Assembly: GCA_020441225.1 (NCBI GenBank) | Contig: JAGRMP010000663.1 | Span: 1-8,296, forward strand | Source: Maritimibacter sp. | Lineage (GTDB): Bacteria > Pseudomonadota > Alphaproteobacteria > Rhodobacterales > Rhodobacteraceae | Length of the DNA: 8,296 nt | Reading direction: 5' to 3' | In this document: piece after piece, positions 100 through 8,296 of the stretch | Layout: each line of letters starts with the position of its first letter | Numbering within the stretch: position 1 is the first letter of the stretch | The notes under the pieces: model-generated | Database searches by the model: none | What the model was told of the DNA's origin: nothing | What the model saw: the letters and a program-made list of their open reading frames with translations, nothing else | Position numbers and translations under genes: made by a program

Positions 100-1674
100 T
101 TACTTCGCTTTCTCGATCCAAACGTCACGGAAGCCGTCATTCACGCCGAAGGCAGTGTTGACCGGGTTCTTGATGTTGCAGCGATAGATTGTGGGGAAGC
201 CCAGTTCGAGCAGCCACAGGTTGGGCACGTCGCTGACAATCTGATCCTGGATCGTCTTGTAGGCCGCGGCCCGGTCGTCGGGGCTGGCCATCAGCGCCGC
301 TTCGTCGAACATCTTGTCGACTTCGGGGTTCTGGTAGTTGGCAACGTTGTTCCAGGGGCTGCCGACCTTGGCATTGGTGCTCATATAGGTCCGCGAGACA
401 CCCAGGGCCGGATCGCCGTACTGGTAGAGGTAGGTGAAGGCGAGATCGAAGTCGCGGTCACTGACCTTCTGGTTCCAGCCCGCCACGTCCGACGGCACAA
501 TCTCCACTTTTATCCCGATCTCAGTCAGGTTCTGCTTCACCGCTTCGGCCCAGCGTTGCCAGGTCTCGCCATAGGGCAGGCCCAGAAGGCGGATGGTTTC
601 GCCGTTGTAGCTCGATTCCGACAGAAGCTTTTTGGCCTTCTCTGGGTCATAGGAGATGTCGGGAGTAGAGTCGGAATAGAACCGGGTCGAAGACGACAGC
701 GGACCGGTGGCGACCTTGCCCAGACCGTTCCATAGCGCGTCCTTGGCGAATTCACGATCCAGTGCGTGCATCATCGCCTGGCGCACTTTCACATCGTCCA
801 GCGGCTTGTTGTTCAGGTTGATCCAGAGCCACGAAAGCGGCCCGAAGTACTCCCACCCCTTGTCGGTGATGCAGGTGTTCTCCATGTCGCGGATACGCGG
901 CACATCGAAGTTCTCGATCGAGCCACCCGGCAGCACGTCTACCTTGCCGGTCTCATAGGCGACCGCACGCGAGGCGGCATCGGGGATCACGTGGTAGTAA
1001 ACCTCGTCCACGTGAGGCTTGCCCTCCATGTAGTAGTCCGGGTTCTTGACCAGGTGGATGTAGCTGCCCTTGACCCATTCGTCGAACTTGAACGGTCCGG
1101 TGCCGATCGGGGTGTTGTTCGCCGGGTTGTTGGCGAAATCGGTGCCTTCGTAGATGTGCTTCGGAATCATCGGCGCGGTGCCAGGCTCGAAGATGCCGAT
1201 GAAGGGCCCGAAGGGCTGCTTCAGGTTGAAGACCACCGTGTGATCGTCGGGCGTCTCGATGCTTTCGACATGCTGCATGTAAGTGCGCATGCGCGAATGC
1301 GATTCACGCAGGAACTTGTCCATCGAGAACTTCACGTCCGCCGAGGTGAACGGCTTACCGTCATGGAAGACAACACCCTTACGCAGCTTGAAGGTGTAGG
1401 TCTTGCCGTCTTCCGAAATCTCCCACGACTCGGCCAGCTGACCGGTCGGCTGGAGATTCGCGTCATAGCGCAGCAGGCTTTCGTAAATATCGCCCGCAAC
1501 CATCTGCGTGGGGCCATTCTGAATCAGACCCACCATTAGCCCTGGCGGTTCGGGCTGGATAACGACGTTCAGCGTACCGCCCTGTTGCGGCGTGCCGTCC
1601 TGCGCGGCCATCGGCCCCACCAGGACAAAGCTCGCCACGGTGGCTGCAATTGCAAACTTGAGTTCTCTTAGCAT
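100..1674 (-). CDS. Periplasmic ABC-transporter substrate-binding protein, family 5 (peptide/dipeptide type)
   Basis: This 524-residue protein should capture its ligand in the periplasm and deliver it to an ABC importer. Residues 1-24 form a signal peptide: basic start, hydrophobic core 7-20, and a likely cut near Ala24 before QDG. There is no lipobox cysteine, so it should be free in the periplasm. The mature protein has the SBP_bac_5 hallmarks: GGTLNVV at 32-38, the signature block around 92-120 (YTFKLRKGVVFHDGKPFTSA, then DVKFSMDK), and GTGPFKF at 191-197. Length is normal for the family. The ATG at 1674 is supported by an AGGGA ribosome site (complement of 1681-1685) six bases upstream. 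Cys268 and Cys499 are candidates for a disulfide. The family binds peptides, nickel, opines, glycosides and other ligands, so the substrate cannot be read from sequence. The gene lies 110 bp downstream of the regulator on the same strand and may share its transcript. Confidence 0.93.
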   Translation of the reverse strand: MLRELKFAIAATVASFVLVGPMAAQDGTPQQGGTLNVVIQPEPPGLMVGLIQNGPTQMVAGDIYESLLRYDANLQPTGQLAESWEISEDGKTYTFKLRKGVVFHDGKPFTSADVKFSMDKFLRESHSRMRTYMQHVESIETPDDHTVVFNLKQPFGPFIGIFEPGTAPMIPKHIYEGTDFANNPANNTPIGTGPFKFDEWVKGSYIHLVKNPDYYMEGKPHVDEVYYHVIPDAASRAVAYETGKVDVLPGGSIENFDVPRIRDMENTCITDKGWEYFGPLSWLWINLNNKPLDDVKVRQAMMHALDREFAKDALWNGLGKVATGPLSSSTRFYSDSTPDISYDPEKAKKLLSESSYNGETIRLLGLPYGETWQRWAEAVKQNLTEIGIKVEIVPSDVAGWNQKVSDRDFDLAFTYLYQYGDPALGVSRTYMSTNAKVGSPWNNVANYQNPEVDKMFDEAALMASPDDRAAAYKTIQDQIVSDVPNLWLLELGFPTIYRCNIKNPVNTAFGVNDGFRDVWIEKAK

Positions 1675-1784: not shown

Positions 1785-2441
1785 TCAGGCGGAGCTCAGC
1801 GTTTTGATGTATGCAACGATCCCCTCTCTTGCCATTATGATATCTTCTCGCATCCCATCGCGGGCCAGCTCGGATTCACCCTTCGCACAGGCGGCGACGA
1901 TGATGTGGTGGCGTTTGACCATGTCCTGCGTGGCCGTTGAGAAATATCCCGATAGCAACGGCCCCATGCGAAGCCAGAGCTGCCCGAGCATGCTCAGAAG
2001 CACCGGCATGTTCGCGATCTCGGCAAGGGCGAAGTGAAACTGCTGGTTCAACTCGTTCGCCTGCGACCACCGCTTGGCGTCAATCGCTTCGGCGTTCCGC
2101 TCCACCAGCCGCTGCAGCTGCGCGACGTCCTTGTCCGTCGCCATTATTGCGGCGCGCTCTGCGGCGAGCCCTTCAAGCTCCGCGCGGATTCGAGAGATCT
2201 CGAGATACTCTTCGACCGAAAGCACAGGCACACGCACGTCGCGCACGGTGCGCTGCTCCAGAGCATTGTCGCGTAGCAGGCGCTGAACGGCGTCCCGCAC
2301 CGGCGTGGAACTGGTGCCCAACGCCTCGCCCAGCCCCCGAATAGTAATCTTTTGATTCGGCCGAAGCTTGCCGCGCATCAGATCCTGGCACACCCGCCGA
2401 TAGATCGCGTCCCCGAGCGAATCCTTGCTGATCTCTTTCAT
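1785..2441 (-). CDS. GntR-family transcriptional regulator, FadR subfamily with FCD domain
   Basis: This 218-residue protein has a winged helix-turn-helix at about 8-75 (IYRRVCQDLMRGKLRPNQ, then GLGEALGTSSTPVRDAVQRL) and an all-helical FCD ligand-binding domain at about 78-212. The HTH pattern, with TPVRDAVQRL in the recognition region, is typical of GntR proteins. FCD members usually sense a small organic acid, often through a metal held by an Asp/Asn and three His. Here N132, H136 and H178 or H179 fit that set, but the last His near residue 200 appears to be Asp or Glu (sequence MRED at 197-200), so the metal site may be altered. It is divergent from the five-gene plus-strand operon and adjacent to a near-perfect inverted repeat, so it most likely represses that operon and itself. 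The ATG at 2441 has only a weak ribosome site; see the short leader frame that overlaps it. Confidence 0.92.
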   Translation of the reverse strand: MKEISKDSLGDAIYRRVCQDLMRGKLRPNQKITIRGLGEALGTSSTPVRDAVQRLLRDNALEQRTVRDVRVPVLSVEEYLEISRIRAELEGLAAERAAIMATDKDVAQLQRLVERNAEAIDAKRWSQANELNQQFHFALAEIANMPVLLSMLGQLWLRMGPLLSGYFSTATQDMVKRHHIIVAACAKGESELARDGMREDIIMAREGIVAYIKTLSSA

Positions 2442-2464: not shown

Positions 2465-2607
2465 GACGAACGCCCTCCCTTTCTATTTTGATGCATCATG
2501 CATCATATGAGTTGAAGCCGCAAACTAAAACTGCAATGCTACCACCGACCGCGCGCAAACCGATCGGCCAGCCGCGAACTCTAAGAACAGTCAGGGATGG
2601 TCTGAAC
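2442..2607. promoter_or_regulatory. Divergent control region between the regulator and the catabolic operon
   Basis: This 166-bp gap should hold the promoters of both divergent units. I see no convincing -35/-10 pair. Possible -10 elements are TATGAG on the plus strand (2506-2511) and TATGAT on the minus strand (2507-2502). Both overlap or abut the right end of the inverted repeat at 2489-2505, so a protein bound there could block transcription both ways. The stretch 2512-2600 holds no hairpin followed by a T run and no other repeat that I can see. Promoter positions are inference only. Confidence 0.5.
2489..2505. promoter_or_regulatory. Candidate GntR operator: 17-bp inverted repeat
   Basis: The sequence TGATGCATCATGCATCA is an inverted repeat of two 8-bp arms (2489-2496 and 2498-2505) that are perfectly complementary around a single central base at 2497. 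It also contains the perfect palindrome TGATGCATCA (2489-2498), and ATGCATCAT occurs twice with a 7-bp period (2491-2499 and 2498-2506). It lies 48 bp upstream of the regulator's start and 103 bp upstream of the operon's first start. Size, symmetry and place fit an FCD-type GntR dimer site. The assignment to this regulator is inference. Confidence 0.65.
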
Positions 2608-3636
2608 ATGAAAGCCTTTTTCGATGCTCGACAGCTGGGTCATGCGCCGGATATTTATTTCCGTCGCGGCGCCGCAATGCCACATCAGGAACAGCCCCGC
2701 CGAGCAGAACTGCTGCGCGATATGCTGATCGCCGAAGATTTCAGCATTAGCGCGCCGCGCGACCACGGGCTGGCGCCAATCAAGGCAGTCCATAATCCTG
2801 ATTACGTCGATTTCTTGCCCGACGCCCATGCCCGTTTCGTCGCCGACGTCGGCCCCGACGCGCTGGCGATTCCAACGGCCCATCCGGGCCGACGCCGCGG
2901 GAAGGAACCGAAGGATATTCACGGCCAGCTGGGTTGGTGGATGACGGACACCTCGACCCCGCTGACCGCGGGCAGTTGGGACGCCGCCTACTGGTCTGCC
3001 CAGACCGCCGTAGAAGGTGCCGAGGAAATTCTGTCCGGTGCGCGTGCAGCCTATTCGCTCTGTCGGCCGCCTGGACATCATGCGATGCGCGACTGTTCCA
3101 ACGGGTTCTGCTTCTTCAACAACGCCTGCATCGCCGCGCATCACTTGACCAGCAAATACCGCAAAGTGGCGCTAATCGACGTGGACGTGCACACCGGCAA
3201 CGGCTCCCTCGACATCCTTTACGAACGTGGCGACATCTTCTTCTGCTCGCTGCACCCGGACCCGAAGACCTATCCCACCTTCTACCTCGGCCATGCCGAC
3301 GAAACCGGCGCAGGTGAGGGCGAAGGCGCATCGATGAATATCCTCTTGGAACGGGGCGCGGGCGAAAGCGATGTCCTGGCCGCACTCGACAAAGGGCTGG
3401 CGGCAATTCGCGATTTCGGCGCCGAAGCTTTGGTAGTCTCGCTGGGGTTCGACATGGCTGCCGACGACCCGCTGGCGGCTGTGGCCGTGTACCCGGGGGG
3501 CTTTGCCGAAATGGCCCGGCGCCTGGCCGCGATGAACCTCCCCACTGTGCTCGTGCAGGAAGGCGGTTATCTCGGGCCGTCGCTGACTGACAATGCTCGC
3601 GCATTCCTGACGACCTTCCGCGAGGCGATTCGATGA
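2608..3636 (+). CDS. Acetylpolyamine amidohydrolase-like deacetylase (HDAC superfamily)
   Basis: This zinc-dependent amidohydrolase has 342 residues, close to the family length, and probably cleaves an N-acetyl or similar amide in the cytoplasm. Visible signatures are SLCRPPGHHA (150-159) with the catalytic His pair H157/H158, FFNNACIAAHH (169-179), the metal ligands D193 and H195 in DVDVHTGNG (191-199), the third ligand D282 in SLGFDMAADDP (278-288), and the catalytic-type Tyr321 in EGGYLG. The long loop before DIHGQLGWW (103-111) is typical of the polyamine branch. Two features are odd: T196 replaces the second His of the usual DxHHGNG, and the acidic positions I recall as conferring polyamine specificity in Mycoplana AphA (E106, E117) appear as H105 and S117. 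Acetylpolyamine may therefore not be the substrate. I chose the ATG at 2608 because homology begins there and AGGGA lies 10 nt upstream. The stop overlaps the next gene by 4 nt. Confidence 0.9.
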   Translation: MKAFFDARQLGHAPDIYFRRGAAMPHQEQPRRAELLRDMLIAEDFSISAPRDHGLAPIKAVHNPDYVDFLPDAHARFVADVGPDALAIPTAHPGRRRGKEPKDIHGQLGWWMTDTSTPLTAGSWDAAYWSAQTAVEGAEEILSGARAAYSLCRPPGHHAMRDCSNGFCFFNNACIAAHHLTSKYRKVALIDVDVHTGNGSLDILYERGDIFFCSLHPDPKTYPTFYLGHADETGAGEGEGASMNILLERGAGESDVLAALDKGLAAIRDFGAEALVVSLGFDMAADDPLAAVAVYPGGFAEMARRLAAMNLPTVLVQEGGYLGPSLTDNARAFLTTFREAIR

Positions 3637-5195
3637 CTTCTCGCCCTGACGAGATGAACGGCGCCGAAAGCGTGGTTCGCAGTCTTCATGCCGAAGGCGT
3701 CGACGTCTGCTTTGCCAATCCGGGCACCTCGGAAATGCAGTTCGTCGACGCGCTGGACCGCACGAAGCTCATGCGCTGTGTTCTGGGGCTTTTCGAGGGC
3801 GTGGTGACGGCGGCCGCCGACGGCTACGCGCGCATGGTCGGCAAGCCGGCGGTGACGCTCCTGCACCTCGCGCCCGGCTTCGCCAATGCTGCCGCGAACC
3901 TTCACAATGCCCGCAAGGCGCGGGTGCCGATGCTGAACCTTGTCGGGGATCACGCGCTTCGCCACCAGAAATACGACGCTCCGCTGTCGGCTGATGTGGA
4001 GGGCGCCTGCAGACCCTTCAGCGACTGGGTGCGTTCCGGCCGCGACGCGGCGAGCTTTGCCGCCGACGCGATGGAAGGCCTGGCCGTGGCCAAGGGCAAG
4101 CCCGGCCGGATCGCCACATTGATCGCACCCGCCGATATCGGCTGGGATGCAGGGGGAAAGGTGGCCAAGCCGACTACACCCTCTGCCGCCGCCCCGCTGG
4201 ACGAAAATACATTGTCGGACGCCGTCGCCGCGCTGGAAAGCGGAGACAGGACGGTGATCATCGCCGGCCTGTCCGTGCTAGAGGACACTGTCGCTCTGGC
4301 GCGCCTGCAAGGCATCGCCGAGAAGACGGGGGCGGATCTTCTCGCTCCGGTCTCGAACCGACGGATGGAGCGCGGTCATGGCCGCGTAGCGATGAAAAAG
4401 ATCCCCTACCCGATCAACGATGCTCTTGAAAAGCTGGCGCCGTATGCTCGAGCAATCCTAGTGGAAACCCAGCCGCCGGTAGCGTTCTTCGCCTATCCGG
4501 GCAAACCCAGCCTGCTGCTGCCCGAAACCTGCAGGACAACCGTTCTCGCCGACGTTGATGGCGATGGCCCTGCCGCCATCGCTGCGCTTGCTGATCGGGT
4601 CGGCGCACGCGCAGTCACCCCGCGCGACAATGTACCGCCACCGGTACCGCAGGCTGGCAAGCTCACCGCCGAAGTCATCGGCGCCGTCCTGTCCAACACG
4701 CTCCCCGAAGGTGCCATCGTCATCGACGAGGCCGTCTCGTCGAGCGGTATCATCTTTCCATCCGGCGATAGCGCGGCGCCCAACTCCTGGCTAGCGCTGA
4801 CCGGCGGTTCGATCGGCATCGGCATTCCGCTTTCGGCGGGTGCAGCCATCGCCTGCCCGGACCGACCGGTGATCGCGCTTCAGGCTGACGGATCTGCCAT
4901 GTATACGTTGCAGGGTTTGTGGACGCAGGCTCGCGAAGGCGCAAATGTGACCACCGTGATCCTCGCCAACCGCGCCTATGACATCCTGAAGGGTGAGCTT
5001 CACAACGTCGGCGCCCAACCGGGCCCAGATGCGCTGAGCATGCTCAATCTCGATCGGCCCGACCTGGATTTCGTGGCGCTTGCCAAGGGCATGGGCGTTC
5101 CGGCCCGTCGGGTCGAGGACGCGCAGGACTTCATGCGCACGCTGAAACAAGCGATGTCCGAACCCGGCCCCTTCCTGATCGAAGCCATGATCTGA
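3633..5195 (+). CDS. Thiamine-diphosphate enzyme, acetolactate synthase/benzoylformate decarboxylase-like
   Basis: This 520-residue ThDP enzyme would decarboxylate a 2-oxo acid or join or split carbon-carbon bonds through an activated aldehyde. Domains in order are an N-terminal pyrimidine-binding domain (about 8-175, with NPGTSEMQFVDALD at 29-42 and the cofactor-activating E55 in LFEGVVTAAADGYARM), a central domain (about 190-325), and a C-terminal pyrophosphate-binding domain (about 345-520). The Mg/ThDP motif, usually GDGS followed about 25 residues later by NN, appears as ADGS (418-421) and AN (445-446). The overall pattern matches proteins often annotated as acetolactate synthase large subunit-like, but no small regulatory subunit is nearby and branched-chain amino acid synthesis does not fit the context. 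The start at 3633 overlaps the preceding stop (ATGA) and has GAGG seven nt upstream. The ATG at 3654 (Met8, before NGAESVV) is a possible alternative because homology begins there. The exact reaction is unknown. Confidence 0.88.
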   Translation: MTSRPDEMNGAESVVRSLHAEGVDVCFANPGTSEMQFVDALDRTKLMRCVLGLFEGVVTAAADGYARMVGKPAVTLLHLAPGFANAAANLHNARKARVPMLNLVGDHALRHQKYDAPLSADVEGACRPFSDWVRSGRDAASFAADAMEGLAVAKGKPGRIATLIAPADIGWDAGGKVAKPTTPSAAAPLDENTLSDAVAALESGDRTVIIAGLSVLEDTVALARLQGIAEKTGADLLAPVSNRRMERGHGRVAMKKIPYPINDALEKLAPYARAILVETQPPVAFFAYPGKPSLLLPETCRTTVLADVDGDGPAAIAALADRVGARAVTPRDNVPPPVPQAGKLTAEVIGAVLSNTLPEGAIVIDEAVSSSGIIFPSGDSAAPNSWLALTGGSIGIGIPLSAGAAIACPDRPVIALQADGSAMYTLQGLWTQAREGANVTTVILANRAYDILKGELHNVGAQPGPDALSMLNLDRPDLDFVALAKGMGVPARRVEDAQDFMRTLKQAMSEPGPFLIEAMI

Positions 5196-5218
5196 AGCAA
5201 CTGGCCAAAGGATCCCTC

Positions 5219-6508
5219 ATGACACTTGACCCCGAACTGCGCGACCGTATTCAGAAAGCCGTTTCTGACAGGTTCGATGACCAGGTCGCTTTTACGCAAG
5301 CCCTTGTCAGAATGCCCTCGCTGCGCGGACGCGAACACCCGGTCCAGGATTTCCTGTTCTCGGAACTGCGGAAGCGCGGCTTTGCGATGGACCGTTTCGG
5401 GATGGACCGGAATGCCATCTCAACCCATGAGGGCGGCTCGAAATTCTCGGACGACCATTCGGATGCCCCCATCGTTGTAGGCATCCACCGCCCGCGCGAA
5501 GAAATGGGCCGTTCGCTTATCCTTCAAGCGCATGTGGACGTGGTCCCCGAGGGGCTGCCTGAAATGTGGTCCGACCCGCCCTTTACCGGCAGGGTTCACG
5601 GCGACTGGATGTATGGCCGGGGCGCGGCCGACATGAAAGCGGGCGTCGCGGCCAATATTTTTGCGCTCGATGCGCTGCGCAGCATTGGCCTCCAACCCGC
5701 AGCCACAGTCTACGTGCAATCGGTCGTGGAAGAGGAAAGCACCGGCAACGGCGCCCTTCAGACCTATCTGCAAGGCTACTCGGCCGATGCCGTGCTGATC
5801 CCCGAGCCCGAGGACGAAATGCTGGTGCGTGCCAATACCGGCGTGCTGTGGTTCCAGGTGCAGGTGCGTGGCGTGCCGGTGCATGTGCGCGAGATGGGCG
5901 AAGGCGCCAATGCGATCGACGGCGCAACCCGCGTGATGGCAGCCCTGCACGAAATGGAAGCGGAGTGGAACGCCGACAAGGTCAATCATCCCCACTTCGA
6001 GTCCGAAGACCATCCGATCAACCTGAATATCGGAAAGATCGAAGGCGGCGATTGGGCATCCTCCGTCCCCAGTTGGTGCAACATGGATTGCCGAGTATCC
6101 ATCTATCCCGGTCGCAGCGCCGAAGATGCAGCGCGGGAAATCCAGGACCGCATTGCCACCTTTGCCAAGGGTGACGCCTTCCTGTCGAACAACCCGCCGC
6201 AAGTGGTATTCAACGGGTTCTTCGCCGAGGGATACGTGCTGGAGCCCGGCAGCGACGCGGAATTGGTACTGAGCCGCGCCCACGAATCCGCCATTGGTGC
6301 GCCGCTCAAGTCCTTCATGACGGCAGGATACCTCGATACCCGCGTATACGCGCTTTACAACAAGATCCCGGCGCTCTGCTACGGCCCGGTGTCGCGCAAC
6401 ATCCATGGCATCGACGAATGTGTCAGCTTGTCGTCAGTCAAGCGCATCACGACTGCAATGGCACTGTTCATAGCCGAGTGGTGCGGCGTCGAGCCGGTGG
6501 AACCCTGA
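5219..6508 (+). CDS. M20-family metallo-amidohydrolase (ArgE/DapE-type deacylase)
   Basis: This 429-residue cytoplasmic dizinc enzyme of the ArgE/DapE/CPG2 fold should hydrolyse an N-acyl amino acid or a related amide. Metal and catalytic signatures are complete: H105 and D107 in QAHVDVVP, the bridging D138 in GRGAADMKAG, the Glu cluster 171-173 in VVEEESTGNG, E196 in IPEPED, and H396 in NIHGIDE. The inserted dimerisation domain spans about 205-320 and keeps H222 and the GANAID segment. The start ATG at 5219 has AAAGGA six nt upstream and follows the previous stop by 23 bp, the largest gap in the operon. It is the second amide-cleaving enzyme here and has an unrelated fold to the first, so the pathway substrate may carry two acyl groups, or two different substrates may feed it. 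The acyl donor cannot be named from sequence. Confidence 0.92.
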   Translation: MTLDPELRDRIQKAVSDRFDDQVAFTQALVRMPSLRGREHPVQDFLFSELRKRGFAMDRFGMDRNAISTHEGGSKFSDDHSDAPIVVGIHRPREEMGRSLILQAHVDVVPEGLPEMWSDPPFTGRVHGDWMYGRGAADMKAGVAANIFALDALRSIGLQPAATVYVQSVVEEESTGNGALQTYLQGYSADAVLIPEPEDEMLVRANTGVLWFQVQVRGVPVHVREMGEGANAIDGATRVMAALHEMEAEWNADKVNHPHFESEDHPINLNIGKIEGGDWASSVPSWCNMDCRVSIYPGRSAEDAAREIQDRIATFAKGDAFLSNNPPQVVFNGFFAEGYVLEPGSDAELVLSRAHESAIGAPLKSFMTAGYLDTRVYALYNKIPALCYGPVSRNIHGIDECVSLSSVKRITTAMALFIAEWCGVEPVEP

Positions 6509-7572
6509 TGCGACCACCTCCAGGTTTCCTTCCGGAGACTCCGCCCGATCTTCTGGCTCACGCGGCCCTGACCATTTCGCCCGAACAGGCAGCGGAAATG
6601 GCCGACGAACTTTTCGATGTCAGGGGCGAGGTGCTGCGGCTCAACGCCGAGAAAGATGCGAACTTTCGCATCACGCCCGAGGTCGGGCCGCCGATGCTGC
6701 TCAAGATCACCAATGCCGCCGAGGATCGCGGGGTTACCGAGATGCAAACAGCGGCCTTGCTACACTTGGCCCGCGTCGATCCAGGCCTTCCAGTACCGCA
6801 TGTCCTGCCGGCTCGGAACGGAGCGCCATCGCAGCTCGTTTCGCTGTCTGACGGGAAGGCACATGTCGTGCGCCTGCTTACCTTCCTGGACGGCACTACG
6901 CTCAGCTCGGCCGGGACCGCTTCGACCCTCCACTACCGCATCGGCGCCCTGCTGGCCCGCCTGACCGTTGGCCTGCAGGGTTTCACCCACCCGGCCAGCG
7001 ACCATGTCCTGCAGTGGGACATCAAGCAGGCGCACCGGCTTCGCCCAATGCTGGACGCGGTGGAGGAGCCCGATCTGCACCGCCGTCTGACACGTCTGAT
7101 AGACCAGTTCGAGGCAGAGATCGCGCCGCGCCTGACCCGCCTGCGGGCACAGGTCGTGCATAATGACTTTAATCCCCACAACCTACTGGTCGACACGCCG
7201 GCCGCGACCCGTCTGACCGGGGTGATCGATTTCGGCGATATGGTGCATACGCCCATCGCCTGCGACCTGGCCGTGGCATGTTCCTATCATGTACAGAACG
7301 GGCCGCAGCCTCTGGCCGCCGTTGCGCGCCTGATTGCGGGCTACGCGACCCAGTTGCCGCTAACGGATGATGAGTTCGCCCTTCTGCCCGATTTGATGCG
7401 CCTGCGCCATGCCACGACTCTCGCTGTCGGAGCGTGGCGTGCCCGTCGCTATCCCGAAAACGCCAGCTATATCCGCCGCAATGCCGCCGCATCGCTGCGT
7501 GGTCTGACGACGCTGGACCGAATGGGCAACCAGGCCGCGCTCGCCGCCCTGCAACCGGAGCAGATCCCATGA
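6508..7572 (+). CDS. APH-fold small-molecule kinase, hydroxylysine kinase-like
   Basis: This 354-residue aminoglycoside-phosphotransferase-fold kinase probably phosphorylates a hydroxyl on an amino alcohol or hydroxy amino acid using ATP. Visible elements are the ATP-binding Lys66 in LLKITN, helix-C-type Glu78 in TEMQ, the hinge-region block VVRLLTFLDG (120-129), the catalytic loop HNDFNPHN (218-225, with D220 as base and N225 as metal ligand), and DFGD (241-244). Several stretches resemble vertebrate hydroxylysine kinase (HYKK/AGPHD1) as I recall it: NFR near 52-54, VRLLT, HNDFNPHN for HGDLNDHN, VIDFGDM and YPENASY (315-321). The start at 6508 overlaps the upstream stop as TGATG and has GGTGGA six nt before it. 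An in-frame extension to 6418 is possible but lies inside the M20 gene and lacks homology. The next gene encodes a phospho-lyase-like PLP enzyme, the natural partner of this kinase class. The substrate is inferred only. Confidence 0.85.
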   Translation: MRPPPGFLPETPPDLLAHAALTISPEQAAEMADELFDVRGEVLRLNAEKDANFRITPEVGPPMLLKITNAAEDRGVTEMQTAALLHLARVDPGLPVPHVLPARNGAPSQLVSLSDGKAHVVRLLTFLDGTTLSSAGTASTLHYRIGALLARLTVGLQGFTHPASDHVLQWDIKQAHRLRPMLDAVEEPDLHRRLTRLIDQFEAEIAPRLTRLRAQVVHNDFNPHNLLVDTPAATRLTGVIDFGDMVHTPIACDLAVACSYHVQNGPQPLAAVARLIAGYATQLPLTDDEFALLPDLMRLRHATTLAVGAWRARRYPENASYIRRNAAASLRGLTTLDRMGNQAALAALQPEQIP

Positions 7573-8296
7573 CCATGATCAACGCTTTCGACCAATCCGG
7601 TGCTGACCGCCTCCCAACCGAGGATCGCGAACTGATCGCCCGGCGAGAGAAGGCGCTCGGTCCGGCTTATCGCCTGTTTTACGAGGAACCGCTTCACATC
7701 ATCCGAGGCGAAGGCGTTTGGCTGTGGGACAAGCAGGGGCGCAGGTATCTCGATGCCTATAACAATGTCGCTTCGATGGGCCATTGCCACCCGCGCGTGG
7801 TGCAGGCGATTACCGCGCAATCGGCGGTTCTAAACACACACACACGATACCTGCATGACAGCATCGTAACCTATGCCGAGCGCCTGCTGGCCACCATGCC
7901 CGACGCGCTGGGGCACATGATGTTCGCCTGCACCGGTTCCGAGGCCAATGACCTGGCCCTGCGCATTGCGCGCCGCGTTACCGGCCGGCAGGGCGTCATC
8001 ATCACCCGGCTCGCCTATCACGGCGTCACCGAGTCGGTATCTGAGCTTTCGCCCTCCCTCGGGGATTTCGTGCCACGCACCTCCCGTGTCCGCCTAATCG
8101 ACGCGCCCGACGGACTGCGGGTGTCACCGACCGAGCAGGGTGCAAAACTGGCGGACGACCTCGCCCAGGCAATCGCCGAGATGCGTGCTGATGGCATCGA
8201 ACCGGCGGCATTTCTTGTCGATACGATCTTTTCAAGCGACGGGTTGTATCCGGATCCGGCAGGCTTCCTACAGCCCGCAGTGGACCTGATCCGCTC
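7569..8296 (+). CDS. Class-III PLP enzyme, AGXT2L-type phospho-lyase-like (partial, 3' end missing)
   Basis: The first 242 codons of a class-III aminotransferase-fold protein are visible; the frame is open to the window end. The start ATG at 7569 overlaps the kinase stop as ATGA, with GGAG eight nt upstream; the ATG two codons later (7575) is an alternative. Residues 60-96 (YLDAYNNVASMGHCHPRVVQ to LNTHTRYLH) carry the YNNV, GHCHP and NTxTRYLH signature I associate with AGXT2L1/AGXT2L2. Those enzymes use PLP to eliminate phosphate and ammonia from phosphoethanolamine or 5-phosphohydroxylysine instead of transaminating. TGSEAND (122-128) supplies the cofactor phosphate-binding turn and YHG (150-152) the ring-stacking Tyr. 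The segment LVDTIFSSDG (216-225) replaces the usual EPxxGxxG of ordinary aminotransferases. The catalytic Lys lies beyond the window. A true aminotransferase is the main alternative. Confidence 0.88.
   Translation, partial: MTMINAFDQSGADRLPTEDRELIARREKALGPAYRLFYEEPLHIIRGEGVWLWDKQGRRYLDAYNNVASMGHCHPRVVQAITAQSAVLNTHTRYLHDSIVTYAERLLATMPDALGHMMFACTGSEANDLALRIARRVTGRQGVIITRLAYHGVTESVSELSPSLGDFVPRTSRVRLIDAPDGLRVSPTEQGAKLADDLAQAIAEMRADGIEPAAFLVDTIFSSDGLYPDPAGFLQPAVDLIR

Follow-up and report, generated by a model that had tools for sequence, protein, structure and literature searches.

The pairing of a kinase with a class-III phospho-lyase is known from the chemistry of ethanolamine and 1-amino-2-propanol. 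Utilization of 1-amino-2-propanol and aminoacetone proceeds through the RMM microcompartment pathway, which includes a kinase and a phospho-lyase, and phospho-lyases of the AGXT2L group are known from vertebrates or as stand-alone enzymes of bacteria. The arginine transaminase pathway, in turn, combines AruI, a thiamine diphosphate (ThDP)-dependent 2-oxo-acid decarboxylase, with a guanidinobutyrase of the arginase fold. Here, we describe a gene cluster in a stretch of 8,296 nucleotides from Maritimibacter sp. (Rhodobacteraceae; contig JAGRMP010000663.1 of assembly GCA_020441225.1), hereafter the window. In this cluster, genes for an HDAC-superfamily deacetylase (HDAC), a ThDP enzyme, an M20 deacylase, an APH-fold kinase and a class-III pyridoxal 5'-phosphate (PLP) enzyme lie head to tail on the plus strand, and genes for a GntR/FCD regulator and then a family-5 solute-binding protein diverge from them on the minus strand. 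Our tentative proposal is that the cluster forms an accessory island for catabolism, complete in itself, through which an N-acylated amino-alcohol compound is imported, deacylated and phosphorylated, and the product is then converted by elimination to an aldehyde.

In the proposed pathway, the GntR regulator would bind one 17-bp operator and thereby control the two divergent operons, one for a peptide-type importer and one for the five enzymes. The imported compound would be an N-acylated amine with a hydroxyl group adjacent to the terminal N-acyl (most likely N-acetyl) nitrogen; its other end would probably be an alpha-amino acid bearing a further acyl group or peptide bond. The HDAC would take off the terminal acyl group and the M20 enzyme the second acyl group or peptide bond. 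In the order that we envisage, the kinase would then phosphorylate the hydroxyl adjacent to the freed amine, and the phospho-lyase would eliminate phosphate and ammonia to give the aldehyde. The ThDP enzyme would decarboxylate a 2-oxo acid derived from the amino acid end via a transaminase encoded outside the operon. The first steps are suggested by protein families and context, and the ThDP step mostly by analogy to the arginine transaminase pathway. As to the substrate class, our guess is omega-N-acetylated hydroxylated diamino acids of the 5-hydroxylysine type or shorter, because these fit the two deacylases, the carboxylate-type M20 enzyme, the kinase/lyase pair and the ThDP enzyme together. 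The initial annotation had already read the genes as import, deacylation, O-phosphorylation, elimination to an aldehyde and ThDP-dependent chemistry; the first four steps fit the families, with the lyase nearer to phospho-lyases, while the ThDP step stays conjectural.

Several lines of evidence bear on this proposal. First, the gene set is tightly packed and conserved. The HDAC/ThDP and kinase/class-III junctions are 4-nt ATGA overlaps, the ThDP and M20 genes are separated by 23 nt, and the M20 and kinase genes share 1 nt in TGATG; sequence and family profiles thus confirm the five genes, the junctions and the neighboring peptide-type importer as initially annotated. The interval assigned to them holds the five enzymes and omits the divergent importer/regulator operon of the same unit. 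A locus of Seohaeicola zhoushanensis (L011), the species of the window, matches it across all 8,296 bases at 99.3% identity. There, the importer operon goes on with genes for two permeases, an ATPase and an SDR on the same strand as the solute-binding protein gene, and the enzyme operon stops after gene five, which ends 322 bases short of the contig end. Gene five is complete in L011 and in a plasmid locus of Tritonibacter mobilis (L001), where the next long open reading frame is on the opposite strand.

A scan of species genomes with an HDAC alignment and two peptide patterns gave 51 loci. The 22 with an HDAC at least 80% identical (L011-L030, L049 and L053), together with L001, form a set of 23 Rhodobacterales loci, which are not independent, as L001 and L025 are from one species and L011 is from that of the window. 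Outside this set are 20 loci with 59-73% identity (L031-L048, L051 and L054) and nine with 25-41% (L050, L052 and L055-L061). Of the 23 loci, 20 keep the order of the five genes, including two with broken copies of one or two genes (L016, kinase and class-III (AT3) genes interrupted; L023, M20 gene truncated). The exceptions are L021 (contig edge), L024 (HDAC and ThDP genes only) and L049 (no M20 gene). The 4-nt HDAC/ThDP overlap is present in all 22 loci with the ThDP gene on the contig, the importer in 22 of 23, and the GntR gene beside the solute-binding protein gene in 18 of 23; an SDR gene ends the importer operon in nine. Conserved co-occurrence had been set beforehand as the test of the operon, and relatives indeed keep the genes together. 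In comparisons of the Seohaeicola copy with three others, pN/pS was 0.11-0.42 for the seven genes, with synonymous sites near saturation in several, indicating purifying selection.

Although 71 of 198 genomes sampled from the family of L011 have an HDAC relative at an E value of 1e-40, the close HDAC type occurs in only one, that of L011 itself, the next best being 49% identical; likewise, ThDP relatives of >67% identity were found in one of 394 genomes (three candidates scored per genome), again that of L011. Thus, the unit is a sporadic accessory island. Moreover, none of 40 regions near distant HDAC paralogues (42-49% identity) holds ThDP, APH or phospho-lyase genes at the thresholds set here. 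These regions were top-of-list picks from the 70 other HDAC-positive genomes, with weaker ones and one at a contig end excluded, and seven are shorter than 19 kb. In this sample, therefore, the ThDP/kinase/lyase grouping tracks the close HDAC type. A beta-keto-acid cleavage enzyme (BKACE) is encoded in 23 of the 40 regions, 17 of which also have a class-III aminotransferase. This separate aminotransferase-BKACE-HDAC operon is frequent in the family sample (L078-L117, e.g., L080, L081, L084, L093 and L104) and may serve an N-acetylated beta-amino acid, for example acetyl-beta-lysine.

Second, the loci share a palindrome. The predicted operator of the GntR regulator is a 17-bp odd palindrome, TGATGCAT(C/G)ATGCATCA, in the 166-bp region between the divergent GntR and HDAC genes. 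With at most one mismatch, it lies upstream of the HDAC gene in 20 of the 23 loci, namely L015, L028 and every one of the 18 with GntR. Nine of the 19 searched genomes that carry the locus site, including the host genome of 5.5 Mb, have no other site within two mismatches, the remaining ten having at least one further site, and a reversed control pattern had no match in 26 genomes. Among the 198 family genomes, a site with at most one mismatch is present in three, i.e., the host, G120 (exact) and G157 (inside an unlabelled open reading frame). In G120, it lies between the start of a GntR gene (product 65% identical to that of the window) and a divergent class-III aminotransferase gene of the PRK06105 group. 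G219 has two extra sites between a GntR gene (45%) and genes for an aminotransferase and then an aldehyde dehydrogenase, and Marivita-type loci (L032, L034, L035, L038 and L039) have the core between a GntR gene (42-48%) and a divergent PRK06105-group aminotransferase gene. The operator-linked aminotransferases are 54-64% identical to those of Thioclava and Paracoccus, of which the Paracoccus protein is an NCBIfam PRK06105 member. In Azospirillum (L065), the 10-base core precedes both a GntR gene and a kinase/phospho-lyase pair without an HDAC. In 2.3 Mb of retrieved sequence there are 27 copies of the core (window and L011 taken as two); 26 are at the places described above, and the remaining one is within a LysR gene (L002). 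Because the site is shared across aminotransferase and kinase/lyase loci, this regulator type appears to travel with either route from terminal amine to aldehyde. Sites with two mismatches also occur off the island, in G205 inside an unlabelled open reading frame and further in G201, G204, G208-G211, G215, G217, G218 and G223, and as a third extra site in G219. G213, the genome of L026, has one such site besides five near-copies of the operator sequence, TGAAGCATCATGCATCA, which are spread over several contigs and are possibly a repeat element. A Fisher test of perfect cores with versus without GntR gave P = 0.0027 but takes no account of relatedness and was not counted as evidence.

Third, related clusters vary around a common theme. 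Importers of the same clade adjoin HDAC genes with changing partners. Nitratireductor and Paracoccus clusters have an HDAC with an M20 enzyme, a 2-hydroxyacid dehydrogenase and a class-II aldolase, and those of Nitratireductor hold neither an aminotransferase nor a kinase/phospho-lyase pair. Azospirillum L004 has an HDAC with an M20 enzyme, a ketopantoate-reductase-like protein, a Zn-hydrolase, a ThDP enzyme and BKACE. On a Comamonadaceae plasmid (L006), one HDAC gene is beside a PRK06105-group aminotransferase gene and a second is beside genes for a kinase and a phospho-lyase, as if the two sets were for plain and hydroxylated amines. In Chelatococcus (L066), genes for an aldehyde dehydrogenase, GabT, a ThDP enzyme, an importer, an HDAC, GntR, a Zn-hydrolase, a kinase and a phospho-lyase are together, and Thioclava and Rhizobium lusitanum have an aminotransferase, an amidase, a kinase and a phospho-lyase without an HDAC. 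In the recurring theme, a deacylase could free a terminal amine, which an aminotransferase or a kinase/phospho-lyase pair then processes. With more reserve than for the island itself, we suggest that this may be an undescribed, transferable pathway for N-acylated hydroxy-diamino compounds, for instance N-acetylated molecules of the hydroxylysine type. In it, a distinct type of HDAC with Thr196 (see below) would be a catabolic small-molecule deacetylase, and a kinase/phospho-lyase pair would take the place of the aminotransferase that handles non-hydroxylated analogues under this type of regulator. Beside the island in L011 (906-1982) and L053 (18448-19590), the gene for a protein of 358-380 aa is flanked by those for a GSAM-like aminotransferase and a further HDAC; the 358-aa L011 protein matched no Pfam or NCBIfam family under the limits applied. 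L029 has an extra HDAC gene after the fifth gene of the operon (16359-17471; 43% to the Azospirillum HDAC). Neighborhoods of the M20 enzyme (Acidiphilium and Paroceanicella), the solute-binding protein (L069 and L073) and the ThDP enzyme (L074-L077 and L154-L158), as well as HDAC loci L008 and L010, provided nothing informative.

Table 1. Features of the window
Feature	Position	Strand	Match or location
Family-5 (dipeptide/nickel-type) solute-binding protein	100..1674	-	PF00496, 317.7 bits
GntR/FCD-family regulator, opens the importer operon	1785..2441	-	PF07729 + PF00392
Predicted operator, 17-bp odd palindrome TGATGCATCATGCATCA	2489..2505	.	Between the divergent GntR and HDAC genes
HDAC-superfamily deacetylase, acetylpolyamine-amidohydrolase-like	2608..3636	+	PF00850
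ThDP enzyme, PRK07586 group, benzoylformate-decarboxylase-like	3633..5195	+	NF005760
M20 ArgE/DapE-type deacylase	5219..6508	+	NF005306
APH-fold small-molecule kinase, probable amino-alcohol kinase	6508..7572	+	PF01636
Class-III PLP enzyme, probable O-phosphoamine phospho-lyase, incomplete at the window end	7569..8296	+	PF00202

The HDAC of the window (Table 1) has acetylpolyamine amidohydrolases as its nearest PDB sequences. H157, H158, D193, H195, D282 and Y321, which we take to be the Zn ligands, the tandem catalytic His residues and the catalytic Tyr, are intact in all 100 aligned copies; for residue counts, copies covering <85% of the query or below the score limits were dropped. Beside H195, Thr196 is present in all 46 copies of at least 55% identity, the window included (T-type copies), while 52 of the 54 others have His. 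Because the 46 include Nitratireductor, Paracoccus and Marivita copies without a ThDP gene, Thr196 marks a group wider than the five-gene operon. All 46 also have R153-P154-P155 (RPP) and the EGGY motif (E318-Y321), both tied to acetyl preference (PMC11532494). An alternative that we regard as unlikely is that the operon serves an acetylated hydroxypolyamine, e.g., N-acetyl-2-hydroxyputrescine, such that the HDAC is a true acetylpolyamine deacetylase, the kinase and lyase generate 4-aminobutanal, and the M20 and ThDP enzymes serve a linked acid. The nearest PDB sequences fit this idea, as do His105, which aligns with His106 of Pseudomonas ApaH (PMC11532494), and the GabT and aldehyde dehydrogenase genes in L066. 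However, the PIS motif that PMC11532494 assigns to bacterial polyamine deacetylases reads P288-L289-A290 in the window, and the T-type copies have Leu at position 289 (46/46) followed by Ala (34/46) or Ser (12/46). Moreover, an ArgE/DapE-type M20 enzyme and a 2-oxo-acid ThDP enzyme imply a carboxylate, which polyamines lack, and the importer is peptide-type rather than polyamine-type.

The M20 enzyme scores 677.9 bits against NF005306 (cut-off 376), and its H105, D138, E171, E172, E196 and H396 are conserved in at least 97% of 37 copies. The solute-binding protein matches 12 NCBIfam models, each below its curated cut-off. The ThDP enzyme scores 679.6 bits against NF005760 (cut-off 363), has benzoylformate decarboxylase as its nearest PDB entry, and keeps E55, H78, D419, G420 and N446 in 25 of 25 aligned copies; it is probably a 2-oxo-acid decarboxylase. 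It falls below the benzoylformate decarboxylase model PRK07092 (201.9 bits versus a cut-off of 493), and near the place of the second active-site His, presumably His281 in benzoylformate decarboxylase, all 25 copies read FF. Relatives of the ThDP enzyme (64-67% identity) close another peptide-type importer operon in L154-L157; in L155, the relative is accompanied by amidohydrolases, a hydantoinase, a carbon-nitrogen hydrolase and a racemase.

The only PDB sequence match of the kinase is 6ef6, titled aminopropanol kinase. In searches with a model of the kinase (pLDDT 85.5), homoserine kinase was the best fold, and aminopropanol kinase ranked third in Foldseek and ninth by Z score. H218, D220, N225 and D241 are kept in at least 97% of 22 copies, and the enzyme is, as judged from sequence and model, probably an amino-alcohol kinase. 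The complete class-III enzyme of T. mobilis (L001) is nearest to a phospholyase (5g4i, 378 bits) and an ethanolamine-phosphate phospho-lyase (6tor, 339 bits), and is probably an O-phosphoamine phospho-lyase. The kinase and lyase genes are adjacent in annotated L002 (a distant pair; kinase 26%, lyase 47%), L006, L062, L064-L066 and L071.

These similarities also bear on the idea that the substrates are simple amides, i.e., N-acyl-1-amino-2-propanol or N-acylethanolamine, with the kinase and lyase producing propanal or acetaldehyde and the ThDP enzyme joining the aldehyde to pyruvate in acyloin formation. The kinase resembles aminopropanol kinase in sequence and fold, the nearest relatives of the lyase include ethanolamine-phosphate phospho-lyase, and the ThDP group carries the name acetolactate synthase. 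Nevertheless, we give this idea little credence: two different deacylases and a peptide importer exceed what it needs, the HDAC-ThDP pair persists without an adjoining kinase/lyase pair (L004 and L024), and the ThDP enzyme scores 114.1 bits against TIGR00118 (biosynthetic large subunit), far under the cut-off of 538.35. Acetolactate biosynthesis was rejected on the same score. Less likely again is a reading without a phosphorylation/elimination pair, in which the class-III enzyme would be an ordinary omega-aminotransferase and the kinase would have some other role. Most listed solved members of the fold are transaminases or racemases, and relatives are annotated as aminotransferases; however, the best transaminase match of the L001 enzyme, GABA transaminase, reaches only 202 bits, the lyase group is distinct from, and 25-33% identical to, the PRK06105 aminotransferases that occur in the same clusters, and the kinase/lyase adjacency recurs as listed above. 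That the genes are a chance or loose grouping of unrelated catabolic genes is very improbable and was rejected, since the conserved order, the invariant HDAC/ThDP overlap and the common operator contradict it, even though the genes have relatives in other contexts.

Further roles were considered. Two related HDAC/importer clusters lie beside siderophore uptake or siderophore-type synthesis genes (L005:1-4689 and L070:18776-25476), and siderophore breakdown was considered on this basis. Anti-phage defense was rejected, as six proteins had no PADLOC match. Ectoine-type and beta-lysine-type routes were dropped, as neither ectoine hydrolase nor BKACE is among the seven window proteins. A microcompartment pathway in the host was rejected because PF00936 is unmatched in the genome of the window's species (G001). 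PF00936 has matches in four of 21 genomes searched (the 22 T-type genomes minus G208), i.e., G200, G201, G211 and G219; in G200 and G201 these are off the operator-site contigs, and in G219 they are >2 Mb away.

Several observations weigh against the proposal of an island for N-acylated amino alcohols. The operon lacks genes for an alpha-transaminase or an aldehyde dehydrogenase. The M20 gene is absent in L049 and 5'-truncated in L023; the operator is missing in L018, L024 and L029; L015, L018, L028 and L029 have no GntR gene next to the importer; and L024 lacks both importer and GntR. The His105 column holds Phe, Asn or Tyr in 20 of the 46 T-type copies, and the HDAC pocket may therefore vary. 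In L024 and in L004 of Azospirillum, the HDAC-ThDP pair stands without a kinase/lyase pair beside it, and the ThDP substrate could therefore lie outside the amino-alcohol branch; the L004 strain, however, has a kinase/lyase pair with the operator core on another plasmid (L065). Because the ThDP relatives of 64-67% identity sit with other importers and amidohydrolases, the family does not reveal the ThDP substrate. Finally, the nearest outside kinase/phospho-lyase pairs among plasmids (L062:5259-12348 and L064:5259-12348) adjoin a diol dehydratase of the propanediol/glycerol type, an SDR and a sugar-type importer, without an HDAC.

If the proposed island is correct, it would provide a small-molecule catabolic function for a bacterial HDAC branch usually named after histones or polyamines, and an unrecognized nitrogen compound would be used as food by marine bacteria. 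Also, kinase/phospho-lyase and aminotransferase modules would swap under one regulator type. With one predicted operator between two divergent operons, a simple induction screen should be able to reveal the substrate.

The initial annotation knew of no named pathway for this set of enzymes. An abstract-level search of the open-access literature found no description of the five-family combination; for the kinase/lyase part, the statement was too strong in view of 6ef6, as this chemistry and each of the families are already known. In resemblance to the RMM pathway, the window pairs an APH-fold kinase, probably for an amino alcohol, with a probable class-III PLP phospho-lyase; it differs in that no shell gene was found in the host and in adding an HDAC, an M20 enzyme, a ThDP enzyme and an importer. 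The AGXT2L group, with its ethanolamine-phosphate and 5-phosphohydroxylysine phospho-lyases and the associated hydroxylysine kinase, includes the nearest solved relatives of gene five, 5g4i and 6tor, whereas the probable lyase of the window belongs to an uptake operon. The arginine transaminase pathway has a logic analogous to that of the window, with a ThDP decarboxylase beside a hydrolase of the arginase/deacetylase fold. However, the window would use acetyl rather than guanidino chemistry and a kinase/lyase pair in place of the transaminase, and its ThDP enzyme scores 118 bits against the 5-guanidino-2-oxopentanoate decarboxylase model (cut-off 500). Finally, compared with ApaH cluster 4 (PMC11532494), the window HDAC is alike in family, catalytic residues and the RPP and EGGY motifs but differs in that PIS is replaced and Thr196 takes the place of His, as in every T-type copy.

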